Assembly: GCA_903813345.2 (NCBI GenBank) | Contig: CAIIXF020000011.1 | Location: 24,608,166 to 24,672,165 of the forward strand | Source: Owenia fusiformis | Lineage: Eukaryota; Annelida; Polychaeta; Sabellida; Oweniidae | Length of the DNA stretch: 64,000 nt | Direction: 5' to 3' | Shown: positions 21,404-55,175 of the stretch, piece by piece | Layout: each line of letters opens with the position of its first letter | Numbering within the stretch: the first letter of the stretch is position 1 | The notes under the pieces: model-generated | The model's database searches: none | What the model saw: the letters and a program-made list of their open reading frames with translations, nothing else | Told to the model about the DNA's origin: nothing | Made by a program: the position numbers and the translations under genes

Positions 21404-21911
21404 CACGGTGTTATAGCATGACGGTTACGCCACCTCTGAAAACGAGGTTGGACAGCTACGTTCACTGATTTATCCAATAAAATGGCCGCGATGGAAGAGA
21501 AAACTAAGGTTGGCGCATTATTTTCTACTTCTGTGTATCAATGAAAGGATGAACGATTTATGTAAGAATCGCATTCGGTGATACTTTCAGTAATGTATAT
21601 TTTGAACGTAGCCTTTGCAAATTGATGCCCGGGGATAACATGAAATAAGAGAAAAACTTTGATATCTCAGTCGGTAGGTTTACAGATTATATTCTGTTTC
21701 TTGTAGACCACCTGGCAGATTTGACCCAGTCTTTATAACCAGCCATATATATGTCACCGAATGGAACTAGTTTAAAAGGAAATCTTATCTGTGAATATTG
21801 CCTACAGGTGAGAAAGAGGACATGCTGCCTTTCCCATCCGCCATTTTTTGTTATCGTTACCGCAAAATTTTGCAAATCGCCTTGACGTAACCGTCATGCT
21901 ATAACACCGTG
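21404..21911. mobile_element. Inverted-repeat MITE with CACGGTGTTATAGCATGACG ends
   Basis: About 508 bp bounded by a near-perfect 26-bp terminal repeat starting CACGGTGTTATAGCATGACG. The flanks both read AATAG, a possible 5-bp target duplication. An inverted partial copy (GGCCATTTTATTGGATAAAT onward to CACCGTG) is present at about 49703-49788, inside RPS4 intron 5. No transposase frame. Confidence 0.7.
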
Positions 21912-31394: not shown

Positions 31395-43213
<11,819 letters not shown>

Positions 43214-43442: not shown

Positions 43443-43496
43443 CCGGAAGTTGCTCTGGTGCATTGTGGGATCGACCTTTTTCCGAGTCCATCCAAA
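43443..43496 (+). promoter_or_regulatory. RPS4 core promoter and 5' TOP start region
   Basis: Within 55 bases of the ATG are an ETS/GABP consensus CCGGAAGT (43443-43450), a sequence whose reverse complement TCCCACAATGCA resembles a ZNF143-type site (43459-43470), and a pyrimidine tract CCTTTTTCC (43475-43483) suited to be the 5' TOP transcription start. This would give a leader of only about 22 nt, normal for ribosomal protein genes. The sites are read by eye; no TSS data. The region is also the upstream side of the divergent MTF1 gene. Confidence 0.6.
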
Positions 43497-46400
43497 ATGG
43501 TGGGTAAATATTTCAAGAACCTCAAAAAATCCAGCCAAATCTGGCGTATTCTAATAAGTTAAACAATTAATCTTGTCATTTTAGTTCACTTGGGTTTATT
43601 TTCCATGTTTTCCAAATCAAGTTGATACCGATTATCGTCTAAATCATCATGTTTTGCTCTGTGAAAAGTGCACACTATTTTTTTAATCCACGGAATATTT
43701 ACATGCTAGTACCACATTGGATCGACGTTTGTCAGATAACATTCTCGTTCACTTATGTTACACCTTACACTAGTGTATAACGAGTTCATACTGTTCATAA
43801 CATACTACGATGAGTAAGAGTTTCGTTGAGTAAGGCAACAAATATGAAAAAGTTTGCGATTTTTAAAAATCATCTCATGTCTTTCATTCAATGAATCAAT
43901 CTGAATCTCTGTTAGACTATTCAAAATTTAATTTAGACCTATTTTGTCAATCTCATGTATACCATTTTCTTTATAGCCGCGTGGACCACGTAAACATTTA
44001 AAGCGCCTCAATGCGCCCAAGCATTGGATGTTGGACAAACTTGGGGGAGTATTTGTAAGTACCGATTTTTTCCTAGAACATTAGCCTAAAAGTATTCTAA
44101 CTTATACATCAAGAAGATATGAAACAGAAGTCTTAAATATCCACGAGTGTTTAGTCTCAAAATACAGTTTGTAAAAGAAAATATAACTAATAAGATGCAA
44201 ATTATGATGATATATCCTGGTCCGTGTTTCTGACAATACTGATGTTGCAGGTTCTGAAATTTGCACAAGTTATGTTTCAAAGAACATATTTTATTACAGG
44301 AATTCTATCTTTAAATGAGGCTAATGTCAATTTATCAAAATATTTCAGGCCCCCAAGCCAAGCTGTGGCCCTCACAAGACCAGGGAGTGTCTACCACTCA
44401 TGGTATTCTTGCGTAATCGCTTGAAGTATGCTCTGACATATGATGAGTGCAAGCGAATTGTCAACCAGCGTCTTATCAAGGTCGACGGCAAAGTCAAAAC
44501 TGACAAAACCTACCCCTGTGGATTCATGGGTAAGCTATACTTTAGTTGATCTGTCTGCAGTTTTAAATTTTTACAGTCTGAATTGTATGACCAATATTTT
44601 TGTTAAAAGTTGAAGTTGATTGCAAATCAATGATGATATATCCTGGTCCGTGTTTCTGAATTTACTGATGTTACAGGTTCTGAGACTTGCAATCAAGATT
44701 TCTACAAGAATATAATATACATCAGGGTTCTCACTAGGAAATTTTTAGACCCCAGATTCTTCCCTTTCTAAAGGGTTTCTGACTTACTATTCCCTGTTTG
44801 TATCCAGTTTTATGTATTTTCTCCACAAATTATTTTTACCTCAAATAATGTGACAAAAATGTAAAATTCTACTCCTGAAAAGCTATTACACCCCATGCAG
44901 ACAGATCGCCTTAAAGTACATTCATATGATGCGAGACTCGATATTCTCCAGGAAACTAGAAACATTTTGCCACCAATGAAGTAAATTAATTTTTTGCTGC
45001 TTAATAAATGGTGAATGACAGTCACATTGAGTTCTATAAGTATGAGAATAGCCCATCCTCTTGATATTCCAAGGTAACTCATTTGAATAGTGATTGCAGA
45101 GATTGAAATTAAGATGTAAAAATAAAACCGCAACAAAAAATTTGTAGATTTCTATGAAATAAATACCTCATATCGAAAAAAACATATATAAATACTAAAG
45201 CCTGCAGGTCAGATTCCCCCTGGTAGCATTAACATTGGTCTCGTTTATGTCATACAATTAATATTTGAAACACAACTATTAATCAAACTTATGATCGGAC
45301 ATAAGTATGTGTACTTCAAGGTAATAAAGTAATTATATCATACTAATCGGACATGCAGGCCTTATTATTTATACATGTTTTTTCTGTTTTGGAAAATTTG
45401 ATATGTGAAACATATTTTTTAGTTTTTCAAAAAGTCAAATAAGCCAATCAGATCGGCAATACCCTATTTGGAAACTGTGTTATTTTATTGGTAGTGTGAC
45501 TCTGTAGAATTGAATGAACTCATGTTATAAAAGATGTCTCTGTGATATTTTCGACCAATAGGCTTACAGAGATGCACATAATATTAATGAGCTCCATTAT
45601 GACATATCCATTTCTGAAATTTGGTTTCACCATCTCGTCTCTAAAATCTAACATAAGAGATTAATCGTGCTTGAATTATTAGCAGTTCACTTAAAGAACA
45701 GTTTACACTTAAAGAAACTTAAAATTAACCTCAAGGATTTTTGTGTGAACTAACTATCCAGGGTTACAAGTAATCAATTTTCAATTACCTCCATTGAAAT
45801 TTAGGGAGACAGACTACTTTCTATATCAAACAGTTAAACGGGGTTGCTGATTTTAAAATTTAATTGTAATTTATCTACTGTTTAGAAATCATTTCTCTTC
45901 ATATCTCAGTTTAAGTGACCTGAAGTCAAATGCAATTAATTCATAGGCTTGAAATGATGATGATATACTTTCGCTCTTCTGTAATTCCCATGAAGACTTT
46001 AGTTCAGAATCGCACTGATCAAGCCTCTAAAACACTATCAGTATATTTCCCCGAGTTGTTATATCACGACCCTCAGTTTGCGCAATAAATAAATGCGTAG
46101 TCCATTTTTTAACATATTCTCGAAGAAAATTGTACATTTTACATTATGTGTTCTCTCATCCACTGATGTATGGCCTCATGGAAATTTTCTAATTTTTAAT
46201 ACAGCTCTTTTGTATTTCAGATGTTATCACCATTGAGAAAACTGGAGAGAACTTCCGACTGATCTATGATGTAAAAGGAAGATTTACTGTTCATCGTATT
46301 AAGCCTGAGGAAGCCGCAGTAAGTATGAAACCAAACTCTGCTTCTAATACCTGATCACAAGTTCTGTTCAGTGTTTGGTGATAACAAAACTATAACCATG

Positions 46401-49400
46401 TGCTCTGGCCTGTTTTTCTGAATGTTACATGTACATGTTGTCTCAGCTTTTCAAGTACTCCGATTATTGATACTTCAGCCTCAAGGTTTTAAAATAGAAA
46501 GTTCTCAACTCTTTTATTTGCCATTTGTTAGGTTGTCTTTAATATATTAAACAGGCAATGCGCCTATTTTTGAAGGAAAAAGGACAAAATATTATTTGAG
46601 ACATGTCACTCACACAGTCAATCAAATATGATAAAAACTTTTATTTGGGATAATACTGATGTGAAAAAAAAATTACTTGCATAGAAAACAGCATTTGAAA
46701 TTCAGAGATTGAAAAAAGTGAATTACCACTTTTCACTAAGTGTATGTTTTAAATAACTCTTGGATTAAAAGATGGCGTATGCTTGAAAATCCTATCAAAA
46801 ATGAATGGATAATTAATGCAAACAACAATGCCATCTTTCTATCGCATTGCTAAAAACTTGACATATAAAAATTGATAGGTCAAAAATATTTTTTCATGAT
46901 CTAGTGTCAATTCTGATGTGGTCTGTTTGAGCTGTTTTTGGTGTCAAATGAAAGATCAGGTACTTATTTATCCATTGGAAATACTATGAAGATTTAAAGT
47001 GAGACTTCATTTACGCACCTTATCCCTTTAAAAGAGGAGGCATAGTTCCAAGGCATTCATAGTATAATATGATAAGAATTCAAATTCTAGAAGTATTCCT
47101 TCTCTTTTCCAGCAACTCGGACATGTACCATTATTATTGCACAATATGTTTGGTTATTCCGATTGAATTTGTAATAATATATTGTTGCTTTTCAGTACAA
47201 ACTGTGCAAGGTAAAGAAGGTGTCAGTTGGGCCCAAGGGTGTGCCATATATTGTAACCCATGATGGTCGTACAATCCGCTACCCAGATCCCCTTGTCAAA
47301 GTCAATGACTCCATACAGTTGGATATCGCATCTGGAAAGATGAAGGATTTCATCAAATTCGATTCTGGTAAGTTTGCCTTTATTTAGATTCTCTGGTATG
47401 TGTGGGACTGCAAGGTTTGAACAATCTATAAAAAAGCATGCGGAGTATATCATTTTATAATGAAATTAGTGCCTTACGGTAATGCCGGATTGTCGGCAGC
47501 GGCAGTAGATACTCTCAATTGCCGGTAATAAAATCCATTGCCGATAATCGCCATGCTGCTGCAACATGATGATTGGCATTGCGATCCATTGTCAAATTTA
47601 CGAAACAATGTTCGTTTAAGAATATTTTATCAATCATGTATATTTCAATCTCCACATTTGAAGAGCTAATCTGTCAATCAACTGCAAAGCATTCGTAAAA
47701 GGCGGGAGGAAAAGCAAAACCCCACCCACTTCTGTCAATCATCTCCCATGCCGCGAGATTAACAAATCACGTGACGTGATATTTGGGTGAAGTAAAAACA
47801 AACACAAATAATTTGATCAATTTTGATCGAATTCACTCTATATTATCATTCAAAGACTTCCTAACAATACACAATCACACACGAGATACACGATGATACA
47901 ATATGTCCACTGTAGTTGATGTGAGCGGGAAATCAAGCTGAGAAATCGGCTTCGTTAAGGATTTTTCCAAATATTTTTTTAGTTTCACTTTCAGGTTTTT
48001 CCCCGGGATTTTAGGAACATTATCAGTATCAACGATTATCGGTAACGGTAAGGTAATGGAGGTGAAATTTACCGGCAGTGAGATCCATTACCGTTGCAAG
48101 CACTAAATGAAATCCAAAACTTTTTTATAGTTCATTTTCAAAATTATATATATGTTGAGAATCTGTTGTCATTTTTTGTGTTCACCATCTCCCAGCAAAC
48201 TCTTTCATGTAATAAACATGAGATAATTGTGATTGCAAAAATAATTCAAATGAGGAGAAATAAAGAATTGCTATTGTGCAGCCTGCTTGAGTTTGGGGCT
48301 TTTATAGAGCATGTTAATGATTTACTTGACAACACATTAATTACAAGATTGGCAATGATCGAAGCTGGACTTGACAAATCCCATGTCAAACTCAGTCAAA
48401 ACAATGCCAACATTAAAAATCCATATAGGTCGCTTGGCAGATTTGTGCTGCTTGGGCATTACCCAATGGAATGACATACATGTAATTAAAGCCTCGGACA
48501 CATTTGCTGTTTGGGCATTACCCAATGGAATGACATACATGTAATTAAAGCCTCGGACACATTTGCTGTTTGGGCATTACCCAATGGAATGACATACATG
48601 TAATTAAAGCCTCGGACACATTTGCTGTTTGGGCATTACCCAATGGAATGACATACATGTAATTAAAGCCTCAGACACATTTGCTGTTTGGGCATTACCC
48701 AATGGAATGACATACATGTAATTAAAGCCTCGGACACATTTGCTCAGTGGTGGTCATATGGCAGCTGTAGTTTTACAAAATCAATAGAAAATCTTTACCT
48801 TATATTTAATGTTGCATATTTCTCTTAATTTTTGGAAGCTACGGCGTAGGTTAATGTAGATTAAATGTGACTGTGGCATAAGTTTATTTATAATACTCTT
48901 GAGCAACATAGATAAGGGAAGTGCAAGTGAACAAGGGTTTGGCTGGGACAAATAACTATGTTTTTGTGCATCTTTTACATTAGGATATATAGAGCCAGGT
49001 TTTCCAATAAAAAAATGTTTAACAGCATTCTACATGAGTTATTGATAAAGGCGTTTGCCAAAAAACATTTTGACCCTGCCACATGGAGTGTAAAATGTAA
49101 GCAGTCATCTCAAAAGACCATGTCAATGTTTGTCACTAAATCCTTTAAAAAAGGAATATTAACTTTTCCCATTTAACCTTTAAAAAGGTTAAAGTAAATT
49201 CAAATGATTTGATCATTTGTTTGGATTTGCTACTTTCACGCCCGGTGATCGGAAGAATTGGATGGAGGGGGATTAGCTGATTTTCGGTAGAAAATTCAAG
49301 AAATCTTGGAGATTTGATTTTTTAACATAAAGTTTACTATTGAATTGCTAAATGAATAGGCGCAGTGCACGGGGAAATATGTTAGGTCTTTTACGTTTTT

Positions 49401-52400
49401 TTTGATTGACTTCTAAGATAAAAGATCTATTAAAAAAGGAGCAGCGTCGCCAACGTGCAAATTCCAATGTTTTGGCAAAAACTAAAGCGACAGGAGTCTA
49501 CACGACCTGTAATAAATACTTGTAAGTGAAGTTATTATCAATAAACTATTGTCATCGTTGGTTTTGTAAAACACGTTACTATACGTTATATAAAAAATAA
49601 TCTAAAATAATTAAAACGGGATGGAGGGGGGATTAAAACAAAGGCTAATTAATCCCCCCTCCATTCGATCCCCCCCCTCCATCCCATTTTAATTATTTTC
49701 GCGGCCATTTTATTGGATAAATCAGTGAACGTAGCCGTCCAACCTCGTTTTCAGAGGTGGCGTAACTGTCATGCTACAACACCGTGTTTACCTCCATTGA
49801 AATTTAGAGAGACAGAATACTTTCTATATCAAACAGTTCAACGGGGATGTTGATTAAAAAACTTAATTGTAATTTATCTACTGTTTAGAAATAATTTATC
49901 TTCCTATCTCAGTTTAAGTGATCTGAAGTCAAATGCAATGAATTCATAGGCTTGAAATGATGATGATATACTTTCGCTCTTCTGTAATTCCCGTGAAGAC
50001 TTTAGTTCAGAATCGCACTGATCAAGCCTCTAAAACACTATCAGTATATTTCCCCAATTTGTTATATCAAGACTTTCAGTTATTTATAAAAACTTCACTT
50101 ACAAGTATTTATTACAGGTCGTGTAGACCCCTGTTGCTTTAGTTATAGCCAAAACATTCGCATTTGTACATTGGCGACGCTGCGCTTTTTTAATAGATCT
50201 TTTACCTTAGAAGTCAATCAGTTCAAAAAATCGTAGAAGACCTAACATATTTCCCCGTGCACTGCGCCTATTCATTTAGCAATTCAATAGTAAAATTTCT
50301 GTTAAAAAATTAATTTCCAAGATTTCTTGAATTTTCTACCGGAAATCAGCTTATCCTCCCCTCCATCCGATTCTTCCGATTTCTTCCAATCATCTGGCGT
50401 GACTTTGGTGTCCATTTTTGTAACTAATGATTTGGTCACAAGTCATTGTGTCAAAAAACAGGGTTCGAAATTAGCGTTGCGGAAGTAACGATTCATTCCT
50501 TCATTTTCCAAAATCGTTACCTAGCAACATGCCAAAGTAACGAAAATAGTTACCTGCTTCATGGGAAGAACTCTAAATGATCGTCATCTCAACTTCTCAA
50601 ATGAAAATATGCCGACATTGCCGTGATCAAATGTTTTTGATTTTTTTTCTTTGACACTTTTCATCCTTTTTCACTTTAGCTGAAAGCTGTAACTTCTCAA
50701 AACATAAGATAAAGTGTTCACTTACCATACAGATTCTTATTTTCCTAAAATAAAGTCTTAAAAACCGGCAATTTTGAGGTAAAATCACCGTATTGTTAAG
50801 AAACATTCTGAAGTTGCTAGCCTAACTTCCTGTATGAAAAAGGGAGACATCTATTGAGAAAAATATTAGTCTTGTACTAAATATCCCAGATGCGAGTAAA
50901 AAATTCACAATTCAGTCAAACTGATATCATATTTGTAATCTACATGTAAAATTACATTTAGAAATGTGGTTTTGAAAAGAGTTTATCAACTTAAAAAATT
51001 TAATTTTCTTTGAAAATGTGACTTCTAGGTCGGGGAGATTCCCCATAGACCCCATGTTGTAAAACCACAAAAAGTGAAATATCTTTTCTTGTGTTGGGCA
51101 GATAATATTTTCTTTTACTGGACATATTTTTATTTGTATAACTATCAGATACATAAAGGTAATATGAAAAATGAACCACTAAAACTAATGCATATTCAAG
51201 TTTAAGGGAATTTTGTAATACCCTGCGATGTTAATTCCCCCGAATCAGCCACCTGGTGGCGAAACTGTTAACTACCTACTCGCATCTGAGTAATTGCTTT
51301 CACCCCCTTCAATAAAATTTGCAATTCCCATTTTACCATGCAGATTTGAAATAAGAAAAATAAAATCTTGGGGAGGGAAAGTCGAAAAGACAACAGCTAT
51401 TTGCATAAATTATCAACCTGACCTTTTCACTTAGGAATGTTTATAGTGGGAAATTTGAATTTGAATGTTTATACCACATGATTGGTCTATTATAGTTTGA
51501 TCTGATCACATGACTAATCATCACCATCATCAAGTTTAGAAGGGGTGGAGGCTTTATAGCCTGTAATGTTCTCCCATTTGATCTATTAAAATTAAAACTG
51601 AATTTAGGGTAGGGAACTTTCGAATGTTATCATGAAACAAAATTGATAATAGATCAACAGATCAATAGACTTGTTTAATGGATATAGTGTCAAGGAAAAC
51701 TTTGTTTTATCGCGATAATAACAATTTCAAGCGGTAATAACAACTACCTTACTTTGGTATTTAGTTACCTAGAAAAAATCTCAGGTAACTATTTTCAATA
51801 CCAGGCTAGAAAGTTAAGTTCGAACCCTGAAAAAGAGACTTTTTCTCGGAATCGTAAGTTATTATCCTACCAAAAAAAATTCCCTGGTTGCTGTTTTTCT
51901 AGTCTCGGTATAATACAATGTATGTTTGAATGTTACAGGCAACCTGTGCATGATCACTGGAGGGCATAACTTGGGGCGAGTAGGAACTGTCATCAACAGA
52001 GAACGTCACCCTGGATCATTTGACATTGTGCACATTAAAGATGCTTTAGGACACACATTTGCCACCAGGTTAGTTTACTGTACATGTGTAAAAGGTGAAT
52101 CATATACTTGTAGTCTATTGGTTCAGTTGCCGAGTTAAGTGCCGAGAATTGTTTTATTTTTTTAATTATTTTATTTATTTTAAAAGTGAAAATTTTCCTC
52201 ATTTTTGCAACAAAAACAACCAATTAATTTCTGGATTATCATATCTGGGTTACTAACACCTGAGAAAACTTCATTTACAATTCAAAGTGCAAATCCCATC
52301 AAGATTTTTGAAAATTTTGATATAAACTATATTCTGATCTATCATTTTCATTTCTTATTCAGAATCGGCACGTCAGAAATTTGATTGTAAAAGAGATCCT

Positions 52401-53132
52401 AATTTTCATTATTTTACTTAGAATGGCAATGATCGAAGCTGGACTTGTCAAATCCCATGTCAAACTCAGTCAAAACAATGCCGACATAAAAAATCCATAT
52501 TGGTCGCTTGGCAGATTTGTGCTGTTTGGGCATTACCCAATGGAATGACAAATATTTTATGAAAGCCTTGGACGTAGATACTCACAGTATCCTACTTATG
52601 ATACTTCAAAACAGCATCTTGGTTGGTAATTTTGGACTTGGACCACAACAGCTTTTTGATGTTAAAAGATGTTAGAGAAACTTGGTGCTCCACCCAGCGT
52701 TAAAGCCAAATGGGTGCATCACCCACCTGAGATTTTAATGAATTTGCATCTACTTGGAATTGAGAAATATCATGAAAAAATGTATATTTTGACTAATTTT
52801 TGTTTGAATTGTATAAATGCAAATTTTTCACCCACATGAGAAAAAATCCTGTAGATAATACTGCACCTTTCGAAAGAATGAAATGTTGACATACTTTAGC
52901 CTTTAACAGGCAAAATCATTACTATTCGCCTTGTTAAGAAAAAACTCGGGAGATCACTGTATTTTTAATATATCGGGAAGCTGTCAATATAAACACTTTG
53001 TTGTCTTTTTCCAGGTTAATGTATGTGTTCATCATAGGCAAAGGCAACAAGCCATACGTCTCACTCCCCAAGGGCAAAGGTGTAAAATTGACCATTGCTG
53101 AAGAGAGAGATAGGAGACTGCAGATGAAATAG
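43497..53132 (+). CDS. RPS4: 40S ribosomal protein S4 (eS4)
   Basis: Seven coding exons: 43497-43499, 43977-44054, 44349-44529, 46221-46318, 47196-47367, 51939-52068, 53015-53132; 259 codons plus stop (human RPS4X is 263). Exon 1 carries only the ATG, then GTGGGT; this is the only phase that yields [11 protein letters not shown]. The protein shows the S4e N-terminal segment with [12 protein letters not shown], an S4 RNA-binding segment ([22 protein letters not shown]), a central domain with [12 protein letters not shown], and a KOW-type region with [16 protein letters not shown] and [10 protein letters not shown]. It is a structural component of the 40S ribosomal subunit. Key blocks match known eS4 proteins throughout, with no frameshift. 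The introns hold several snoRNAs, as is typical of TOP-class ribosomal protein genes. It lies head-to-head with MTF1. Confidence 0.98.
44196..44265 (+). ncRNA. Box C/D snoRNA, family 1 copy 1 (RPS4 intron 2)
   Basis: 70 nt closed by a 7-bp terminal stem (TGCAAAT 44196-44202 with ATTTGCA 44259-44265). Box C is ATGATGA (44204-44210), box D' is CTGA (44230-44233), box C' is TGATGTT (44240-44246) and box D is CTGA (44254-44257). The guide upstream of D' (TGGTCCGTGTTT) is a 12-nt complement of the conserved 28S rRNA segment AAACACGGACCA. It ends 83 nt before the 3' splice site of intron 2, close to the spacing favoured for splicing-coupled C/D snoRNA processing. The D guide (TTGCAGGTT) was not assigned a target. 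Confidence 0.87.
44616..44696 (+). ncRNA. Box C/D snoRNA, family 1 copy 2 (RPS4 intron 3)
   Basis: A paralogue of the intron 2 snoRNA with identical box C context and identical 28S-complementary D' guide. Terminal stem TTGATTGCAA (44616-44625) pairs with TTGCAATCAA (44687-44696). Box C is ATGATGA (44630-44636), D' CTGA (44656-44659), C' TGATGTT (near 44666) and D CTGA (44680-44683). The D guide differs by one base (TTACAGGTT). The terminal stems differ between copies yet both pair, which is compensatory evidence for function. It lies near the 5' end of intron 3. Confidence 0.85.
44889..45360. repeat. Repeat related to the 6.1-7.4 kb element (RPS4 intron 3)
   Basis: It matches 6070-6205 joined directly to 7000-7310, i.e. 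a version without the nested insertions. It includes the CTGCAGGTC ... CCCCCTGGTAGCATT block and the ACTTATGATCGGACATAAGT palindrome. Confidence 0.65.
45945..46026 (+). ncRNA. Box C/D snoRNA, family 2 copy 1 (RPS4 intron 3)
   Basis: 82 nt with a perfect 8-bp terminal stem (AGGCTTGA 45945-45952 with TCAAGCCT 46019-46026), box C ATGATGA (45954-45960) and box D CTGA (46015-46018). A D'-like CTGT follows a guide TACTTTCGCTCTT that complements AAGAGCGAAAGT, which resembles but does not exactly equal a conserved 18S rRNA stretch (AAGAACGAAAGT); the D guide is unassigned. It lies 194 nt upstream of exon 4. Unrelated in sequence to family 1. Confidence 0.72.
46319..47195 (+). other. RPS4 intron 4, with a decayed snoRNA-like segment
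   Basis: The segment 46379-46447 resembles the family 1 snoRNAs (GCTCTGGCCTGTTTTTCTGA against TCCTGGTCCGTGTTTCTGA). A C box is weak (GTGATAA), the final D box is missing and no terminal stem pairs, so it is probably a relic. The rest of the intron holds nothing I recognise. Confidence 0.35.
47465..48108. mobile_element. Inverted-repeat element in RPS4 intron 5
   Basis: The ends match as inverses (TTAGTGCCTTACGGTAATG on the left, CATTACCGTTGCAAGCACTAA on the right), with further GGTAATG/CATTACC pairs inside. About 640 bp, no coding capacity. A CACGTGACGTGA segment near 47769 is the only notable internal motif. Confidence 0.55.
48351..48479 (+). ncRNA. Candidate H/ACA snoRNA, copy A (RPS4 intron 5)
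   Basis: The 5' hairpin has a basal pair GGCA (48351-48354) with TGCC, an apical stem TTGACA (48371-48376) with TGTCAA (48384-48389) and a wide internal loop between them. Hinge with an ANANNA-type H box ACATTA (48410-48415). The 3' hairpin is closed by TCCAT and CCCAATGGA, with an inner TGGCA/TGCTG pair; ACA (48474-48476) is exactly 3 nt past the stem. That spacing and the hairpin-hinge-hairpin-tail order fit H/ACA pseudouridylation guides, but I have not folded it by computer and name no target. The open frame crossing it is incidental. Confidence 0.5.
48454..48747. repeat. 59-bp tandem repeat, five units (RPS4 intron 5)
   Basis: Unit starts at 48454, 48513, 48572, 48631 and 48690; each begins GGGCATTACCCAATGGAATG and includes the ACA tail of the H/ACA candidate plus about 36 bp of its downstream flank. 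The units are nearly identical. Confidence 0.95.
49236..50404. mobile_element. Foldback element with ~300-bp arms (RPS4 intron 5)
   Basis: The left arm (49236-49533) and right arm (50091-50404) are inverses; e.g. GGAAGAATTGGATGGAGGGG pairs with CCCTCCATCCGATTCTTCC. Between the arms are a GC-rich inner hairpin (GGATGGAGGGGGGATT and inverse, 49620-49686), a fragment of the 21.4-kb MITE family (49703-49788), and a 285-bp piece copied from RPS4 intron 3 that includes a C/D snoRNA. No transposase frame. Confidence 0.75.
49948..50029 (+). ncRNA. Box C/D snoRNA, family 2 copy 2 (RPS4 intron 5, in foldback)
   Basis: A near-identical copy (one substitution, CCCGTG for CCCATG) of 45945-46026 with the terminal stem AGGCTTGA/TCAAGCCT, box C ATGATGA (49957-49963) and box D CTGA (50018-50021) intact. 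The copied block runs at least 49788-50075, matching 45786-46073, so flanks came along. The snoRNA part is better conserved than the flanks. It lies between the arms of the foldback element at 49236-50404. Confidence 0.65.
50459..51829. mobile_element. hAT-like element with CAGGGTTCGAA ends (RPS4 intron 5)
   Basis: The left end CAGGGTTCGAAATTAGCG and right end inverse (TTAAGTTCGAACCCTG) bound about 1.37 kb. A second inner inverse pair (GAAAATAGTTACCTG and CAGGTAACTATTTTC) supports the call. A CAGATGCGAGTA MITE is nested at 50887-51288. No transposase frame. Confidence 0.6.
50887..51288 (-). mobile_element. CAGATGCGAGTA MITE family, copy 3
   Basis: Reverse-orientation copy of the family at 6584-6991 and 10555-10977, with both ends (CAGATGCGAGTA and TACTCGCATCTG) intact. 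Confidence 0.75.
52425..52553 (+). ncRNA. Candidate H/ACA snoRNA, copy B (RPS4 intron 6)
   Basis: Same architecture as copy A: basal GGCA..TGCC (52425; 52479-52482), H box ACATAA (52484-52489), 3' stem strand CCAATGGA (52537-52544), then ATG and ACA (52548-52550). A few substitutions distinguish the copies; the apical 5' stem has one mismatch here (TTGTCA against TGTCAA). It lies 465 nt before exon 7. The similarity extends downstream into a diverged, single version of the 59-bp unit. Confidence 0.5.
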
Positions 53133-54290: not shown

Positions 54291-54309
54291 AGCCACATGA
54301 AGGGAAAAC

Positions 54310-55175
54310 CTGGTATCTGAATCTCACAATCAAATGTAGGCAATAACTTGACATCCGAACCTCACAATCAAATGTAAGCAGTAACCTGGCATCTGAACCT
54401 CACAATCAAATGTACACGTAGGCAATAACCTGGCATTAAACCTCTCCACACAATCAAAAATTGGCAATATCGTAACCTGACATCTGAACAACAAAATCAA
54501 ATGTAGGCAATAACCTGGCATCTCCACCATACAATCAAACGTAAGCAATAACCTGGCATCTCCACCACACGACCAAGTGTAGGCAATAATTTGACATCTG
54601 AACTACAAAATCAAATGTAAGCAATAACCTGGCATCTCCACCATACAATCAAACGTAAGCAATAACCTGGCATCTCCACCACACGACCAAGTGTAGGCAA
54701 TAATTTGACATCTGAACCTCACAATCAAATGTAAGCAATAACCTGGCATCTCCACCACACGACCAAGTGTAGGCAATAACTTGACATCTGAACTACAAAA
54801 TCAAATGTAGGCAATAACCTGGCATCTCCACCATACAATCAAATGTAAGCAAAAACCTGGCATCTCCACCATACAATCAAACGTAAGCAATAACCTGGCA
54901 TCTCCACCATACAATCAAATGTAAGTGATAACCTGGCATCTCCACCATACAATCAAATGTAGGCAATAACCTGGCATCTCCACCATACAATCAAATGTAG
55001 GCAATAACCTGGCATCTCCACCATACAATCAAATGTAAGCAATAATCTGGCTTCTCCACCATGCAATCAAATGTAAGCAATAACCTGGCATCTCCACCAT
55101 ACAATCAAATGTAAGCAATAACCTGGCATCTCCACCATACAATCAAATGTAAGCAATAACCTGGCACTACTCAAT
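54310..55175. repeat. 38-bp-period minisatellite
   Basis: More than 20 copies of a unit containing AATAACCTGGCATCTCCACC followed by ATACAATCAAATGTAAGC. The first copies are diverged (CTGAACCTCACAATC variants) and the later ones homogeneous. Frames across it are artefacts. Confidence 0.95.

Follow-up and report, generated by a model that had tools for sequence, protein, structure and literature searches.

Does the gene for ribosomal protein eS4 (RPS4) of Owenia fusiformis serve as host for small nucleolar RNAs of both classes, and if so, how did the copies arise and could each of them act as a guide? The gene was analysed within a window of 64,000 nucleotides, which is the whole stretch of DNA under study and to which positions refer unless otherwise given. 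The identity of the host is clear: its product contains the Pfam domains S4, Ribosomal_S4e and KOW and is eS4, with phmmer matches to eS4 chains (best E-value 1.5e-141, to chain 4v6w_AE). A TOP-like tract, CCTTTTTCC, lies at 43475-43483, and the first coding exon probably consists of the ATG at 43497-43499 alone, followed by the donor gtgggt. The layout of the gene is as follows.

43497-53132, plus strand: coding exons and introns of RPS4, from exon frames and intron edges
44055-44348: intron 2
44530-46220: intron 3
46319-47195: intron 4
47368-51938: intron 5
52069-53014: intron 6

Downstream of RPS4, a 38-nt minisatellite of 22 copies occupies positions 54307-55166.

Six snoRNA-like elements were found on the sense strand of RPS4, in introns 2, 3, 3, 5, 5 and 6. 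They are of three types, each in two copies: a U18 type of 63 nt, a U59 type of 82 nt and an H/ACA type of about 134-136 nt. A preliminary description of the locus had claimed four box C/D RNAs in introns 2, 3 (two) and 5, and two H/ACA-like copies in introns 5 and 6. All four C/D RNAs were found about where it had placed them, as were both H/ACA copies, all on the strand of RPS4, and the element coordinates bear out two guides each for introns 3 and 5. The picture of RPS4 as a multi-snoRNA host with two C/D families and an H/ACA pair is supported by these six elements. The check with Rfam covariance models divided the set: two of the four C/D RNAs, the SNORD18 pair, exceeded the cut-off, whereas the U59-type pair and both H/ACA copies stayed below it.

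The SNORD18 (U18) pair is made up of the following features.

44199-44261, plus strand: SNORD18 copy 1, intron 2; RF00093 45.7 bits (cut-off 41), 8-bp terminal stem
44219-44233, plus strand: D' guide and D' box of copy 1, GGTCCGTGTTT + CTGA, complementary to 28S AAACACGGACC
44625-44687, plus strand: SNORD18 copy 2, intron 3; RF00093 47.5 bits (cut-off 41)
44645-44659, plus strand: D' guide and D' box of copy 2, letters identical to those of copy 1

Membership of SNORD18 was judged by an RF00093 score of at least 41 bits and by a D' guide complementary to 28S AAACACGGACC with A opposite its fifth base, and both copies show both features. The copies agree at 54 of 63 nucleotides in an ungapped alignment, and their guides are identical. 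The 28S target was found in the rDNA contig C501, with the A opposite the fifth base of the guide, and the complementarity value was reached by 3 of 100 shuffles. The same rDNA (L021/L022) carries telomere-like CCCTAA arrays in the spacer upstream of an 18S gene. We take the target A to be at the place of human A1313. On our reading of the family's guide, it would also be the 28S place targeted by chicken U18, 28S-A-1263 (PMC2653536). The genome search gave at least five SNORD18 matches, all above the cut-off (60 of 106,442 first-look candidates scored), two of them in RPS4 and three on contig C7. The C7 host gene is RPL4, as indicated by its reading frames and by Pfam Ribosomal_L4, which was over the cut-off in one of three pieces and below it in two. 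Since the RPS4 and RPL4 copies are unlike one another beyond the guide, the RPS4 pair was taken not to be a recent copy; it seems to have branched off from the RPL4-hosted copies long ago.

The second C/D pair is of the U59/Z159 type, and each copy lies within a larger duplicated block.

45945-46026, plus strand: U59/Z159-type copy 1, intron 3; RF00611 37.5 bits (cut-off 46), RF00160 31.9 bits (cut-off 39)
45966-45978, plus strand: D' guide of copy 1, TACTTTCGCTCTT
49948-50029, plus strand: U59/Z159-type copy 2, intron 5; RF00611 37.4 bits and RF00160 30.4 bits, both below the cut-offs
49969-49981, plus strand: D' guide of copy 2
45785-46078, plus strand: duplicated block of 294 nt around copy 1
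49788-50081, plus strand: duplicated block of 294 nt around copy 2; 19 of 294 positions differ between the blocks (94% identity)

Although neither copy reaches the 39 bits of RF00160, both carry the complement to the 18S A1031 site that marks SNORD59/Z159 (clan CL00065). SNORD111 (RF00611) gave the top score for this family and was rejected as its identity: the guide letters are misaligned to that model, and those of Z159 align. The D' guide forms 12 perfect pairs with the 18S rRNA of the same genome at the homologue of the human A1031 site, a value matched by 3 of 100 shuffled guides; taken singly, the guide-complement results for U18 and U59 are of moderate weight. In human 18S rRNA, Am1031 is the U59 site (PMC3511168). 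The 18S base is a G here, and the fifth guide base from the box is a C where the Z159 model has U; this matching C is present in all seven close copies of the type. The corresponding column of the Rfam SSU consensus is in lower case and thus varies among eukaryotes, so that the G need not be lineage-specific.

These seven copies were the matches of a DNA search of the genome (all six candidates scored), two in RPS4 and five within 11.4 kb on contig C10, where two further, diverged relatives also lie. Among the seven, the C box, the D box and both guides are invariant, the flanks differ and the D' box is variable at its final position. The terminal stem of eight pairs is paired in 54 of 56 cells, with two of the eight pairs changed on both sides, which 36 of 500 shuffles equalled. 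For the second invariant guide, TTTAGTTCAGAATCGCA, before box D, no target was found in the visible rRNA, which 41 of 100 shuffles matched equally well and in which much of 28S is unreadable. Within RPS4, the two copies differ at 1 of 82 positions in the snoRNA and at 18 of 212 in the flank (Fisher p 0.03), which argues for constraint on the pair.

The C10 host gene contains a UBA-like piece (GIP1_N, 20.3 bits, cut-off 26.4) and long Q/S/T-rich exons, and a PDB search with a C10 exon gave no match. In these features the gene would resemble UBAP2. Because UBAP2L has been traced only to the vertebrate ancestor (PMC3511168), the name UBAP2-like is used tentatively. This gene (L013 and L014; G000:C10:23129000-23148800) holds ten C/D-like RNAs, namely the five close and two diverged U59-type copies and three of another family. 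The latter have their C boxes at L013:2116, L013:3040 and L014:1639, share CTTTCCCTCGTCTTACTG, and yielded a single weak match to SNORD87, with 24.8 of 50 bits.

The third pair is of the H/ACA class.

48346-48481, plus strand: H/ACA copy 1 (SNORA16/psi28S-3327 type), intron 5; RF00544 23.3 bits (cut-off 70)
48358-48364 and 48396-48403, plus strand: 5' pocket of copy 1
52420-52555, plus strand: H/ACA copy 2, intron 6; RF00190 19.4 bits (cut-off 35), 5' pocket as in copy 1, stems weaker
48446-48744, plus strand: tandem repeat of 59 nt, five copies, which repeats no part of H/ACA copy 1 other than its 3' end, together with the flank

The two copies differ at 8 of 134 nucleotides. Their minimum-energy folds both show the order that defines the class, two hairpins with an H box (ACAUUA and ACAUAA, respectively) between them and ACA located 3 nt before the end. 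By fold energy, copy 1 had a z of -1.31, with 21 of 200 shuffles as good; copy 2, at z +0.84, folded no better than shuffles, and its first hairpin has lost pairs at the base and in the upper stem. As to family, RF00544 (psi28S-3327, which we take to be a Drosophila snoRNA) was the best match of copy 1 scanned alone, and its clan number is common with SNORA16; the scores of the pair with RF00190 (SNORA16), 18.3 and 19.4 of 35 bits, also lie below the cut-off, and what the pair does show of the SNORA16/psi28S-3327 clan (CL00021) is the pairing of the 5' pocket. The pocket letters UCGAAG and UCAAAA are common to the psi28S-3327 model and form 6 + 7 pairs with 28S UUUUGA-U-CCUUCGAU, a score reached by 2 of 500 shuffled pockets. 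The 28S stretch used here comes from a diverged rDNA-like copy on C10, and its target letters are those of the Rfam LSU consensus. The candidate target is therefore the conserved 28S uridine of UUUUGAUCCUUCGAU, near the peptidyl-transferase centre. By position, we take it to be yeast Psi2865, guided by snR46. One of the RNAs that direct pseudouridylation in the peptidyl-transferase centre is snR46 (PMC1766470). For the 3' pocket, several weak candidate targets were seen.

In the diverged rDNA-like stretch on C10 (L023:3201-3300, L024:590-700; G000:C10:25637773-25643588), the 28S sequence is interrupted near CTCTTAA/GTAGCCAAATGCC by about 5.8 kb, an insert that is retroelement-like at its ends by eye. 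The interrupted place is presumably the classic R2 site.

A DNA search of the genome found no full H/ACA copy outside RPS4 (six matches, both candidates scored; the rest were partial 3' copies in the tandem repeat). Searches with the Rfam models left the known RPS4 copies themselves unlisted and say nothing on absence. Among the matches listed, RF00190 had a single one below the cut-off, at 28.3 bits on C11 and above the scores of the RPS4 copies (43 of 46,827 candidates scored; sub-cut-off matches in 3 of 14 control genomes), and RF00273 had two, at 29.9 and 28.0 bits, likewise below the cut-off (60 of 149,123 scored; 8 of 14 control genomes). RF00544 gave none among the 43 of 38,132 candidates scored and sub-cut-off matches in 1 of 14 control genomes.

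Taken with the sequences, boxes, guide complementarity and copies described above, it is very probable that the RPS4 transcript carries six intronic guides of three known types which are released from the spliced introns, and that their copies arose by duplication inside RPS4 together with an exchange of the U59 type with the UBAP2-like host. We infer that these RNAs are expressed and processed and that they modify rRNA. After splicing, the introns would be trimmed until only the snoRNP cores are left, and the guides would direct fibrillarin or dyskerin to three rRNA sites: the U18 pair to 2'-O-methylation of the 28S A, the U59-type pair to 2'-O-methylation of the 18S G that corresponds to human A1031, and the H/ACA pair to pseudouridylation of the 28S uridine close to the peptidyl-transferase centre. 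Trimming by exonucleases would not by itself separate the two RNAs of intron 3 or those of intron 5, so that either an endonuclease cut or the use of only one RNA would be needed. In vertebrates, a distance of roughly 70-90 nt from the 3' splice site favours processing. Four of the six copies lie 459-3,457 nt from it and one lies at 194 nt; these five are thus farther away than the vertebrate-favoured distance, which would count against the proposed release, whereas the U18 copy of intron 2, with 87 nt between the element and the intron end, is near it.

It is quite possible, if something less than probable, that only some of the copies work, with the U18 pair and one U59-type RNA acting; the U59-type copy of intron 5 and one member of the H/ACA pair would then be recent passengers of duplication. 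The lost stem pairs and shuffle-like folding of H/ACA copy 2 point this way, as does the position of the intron-5 block, 1.9 kb from the splice site and bounded by repeats; it is also general knowledge that two RNAs in one intron impede simple exonucleolytic release. However, no copy in either C/D pair has lost its guides or its C and D boxes, both H/ACA copies retain the 5' pocket, and the excess of differences in the flank over the U59-type snoRNA argues that this pair has been under constraint.

The reading of six guides includes an exchange between hosts, and this is suggested by the C10 copy at L013:4138, which shares about 85 nt upstream with the U59-type copies of RPS4 and has the same end, shortly beyond the terminal stem. 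The U59 type thus appears to have been exchanged between RPS4 and the UBAP2-like gene, in one direction or the other. The intron-5 block is flanked by copies of a repeat element.

49236-49700, plus strand: repeat-element copy on the left side of the intron-5 block, oriented opposite to the right copy
50082-50380, minus strand: repeat-element copy whose start is no more than about 2 nt from where the intron-5 block ends

The stretch 49699-49786, left of the block, matches positions 21404-21491 of the window at 97%, and a genome search with the repeat arm gave at least 44 matches (40 of 2,373 candidates scored). A palindrome at about 49602-49702 in the flanking repeat gave sub-cut-off miRNA matches in Rfam; the miRNA-family matches at 49610-49693 and 42106-42225 were dropped, as these positions lie on inverted repeats. 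The arrangement of the intron-5 block fits a DNA-level rearrangement beside repeats, and the repeats could be later arrivals.

That the copies spread by retroposition of snoRNAs (snoRTs), or were carried along by a transposable element, is improbable. It would account for the repeat that starts about 2 nt from the end of the intron-5 block, for the other repeat on its left and for the short A run behind the snoRNA in the C10 relative, but the shared stretch extends past the RNA on its upstream side, by about 85 nt for C10 or 160 nt for intron 5. Moreover, the repeat arm has its many matches across the genome while the snoRNA was found at only two loci by DNA search. For the C10 copy, retroposition was rejected: the A run is present, but a clear target-site duplication is absent by eye.

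Both strands of the window were scanned for the combination of C box, D box and terminal stem with 6 or more Watson-Crick pairs. This gave three matches on the plus strand, all among the four C/D RNAs reported here, and none on the minus strand; 50 Markov-1 random sequences per strand gave means of 0.06 and 0.04 matches. The fourth, the RNA at 44625, was missed because its stem is mismatched near the boxes, and it is still over the Rfam cut-off. The folds of the four are unremarkable (z +0.62 to -1.56); C/D RNAs need no outstanding fold energy. The remaining sub-cut-off Rfam matches of the window were dropped. That the six elements are a chance resemblance, with boxes and stems of ordinary intron sequence, could be argued from the four of six below the Rfam cut-offs, but it is most improbable given the expectation of about 0.06 C/D matches per 64 kb, the two copies over the cut-off and the guides kept invariant in copies at unlinked loci, and for the C/D RNAs it is already refuted.

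Collectively, RPS4 appears from these comparisons to be a mixed multi-snoRNA host, with duplicates made within the gene and at least one exchange with another host. A wider reading is put forward only tentatively: in this lineage, RPS4 may have become a mixed snoRNA hub by DNA-level exchange of intron segments among broadly expressed hosts (UBAP2-like, RPL4 and RPS4), with repeats at the junctions of one copy; the U59-type family, with seven close copies at two loci, would have followed the methylated 18S base as it changed from A to G, and two guides each would be released from intron 3 and intron 5.

H/ACA RNAs reportedly form intronic clusters in the fly, going by the title of a paper on them. 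In the same animal, 27 ribosomal-protein genes host snoRNAs (PMC2246290). In the part of the literature covered, no published account of snoRNAs in RPS4 introns was found. To call repeated duplication within a single host gene unusual, as the earlier description did, was an overstatement. Intragenic duplication is the common mode for C/D RNAs of vertebrates (PMC2653536, PMC8178906), and almost all chicken snoRNA paralogues arose by it (PMC2653536). Duplicated H/ACA RNAs in one host are rarer: this is so for 7.3% of such families in human (PMC8178906), and about 90% of chicken H/ACA RNAs are singletons (PMC2653536).

The significance of the RPS4 set is threefold. It is a clean and checkable example of snoRNAs moving between hosts with their guides fixed, as the constrained-drift model proposed for snoRNAs would have it (PMC3511168). 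The pairing of guide C with rRNA G at the methylated 18S position, preserved in copies at two unlinked loci, offers a way to study how guide families keep up with their targets. For annotation, the gain is six likely guides in RPS4 and thirteen further C/D-like RNAs in two other genes.

Compared with known systems, the snoRNA set of RPS4 is a local arrangement of known parts and not a new kind of system. The closest parallel is chicken RPL4, likewise a ribosomal-protein gene with U18 copies in different introns, which hosts U18 three times (U18a/b/c) together with U16 (PMC2653536, Table 1); the RPL4 region of the present genome also has at least three. RPS4 differs from it in mixing three families of both classes and in holding two RNAs each in introns 3 and 5. 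With SNORD59/snR54/snoZ159 (CL00065), the U59-type copies share the 18S site and the position of the D' guide, but they have C for U at the methylated position, matching the 18S G, stay below the cut-off and carry an extra invariant guide before box D. The H/ACA pair has the 5' pocket letters and the target in common with psi28S-3327/SNORA16 (CL00021), but it scores far below the cut-off overall and occurs as paired copies in RPS4. Finally, UBAP2L is described as the donor of SNORA58, which spread into MRPL3 and NDC1 (PMC3511168), and UBAP2 and UBAP2L host snoRNAs in chicken (PMC2653536). In both cases a snoRNA is common to a UBAP2-like gene and a second gene, with traces of transfer in the sequence, but in the present case the RNA is a U59-type C/D RNA and the other host is RPS4.
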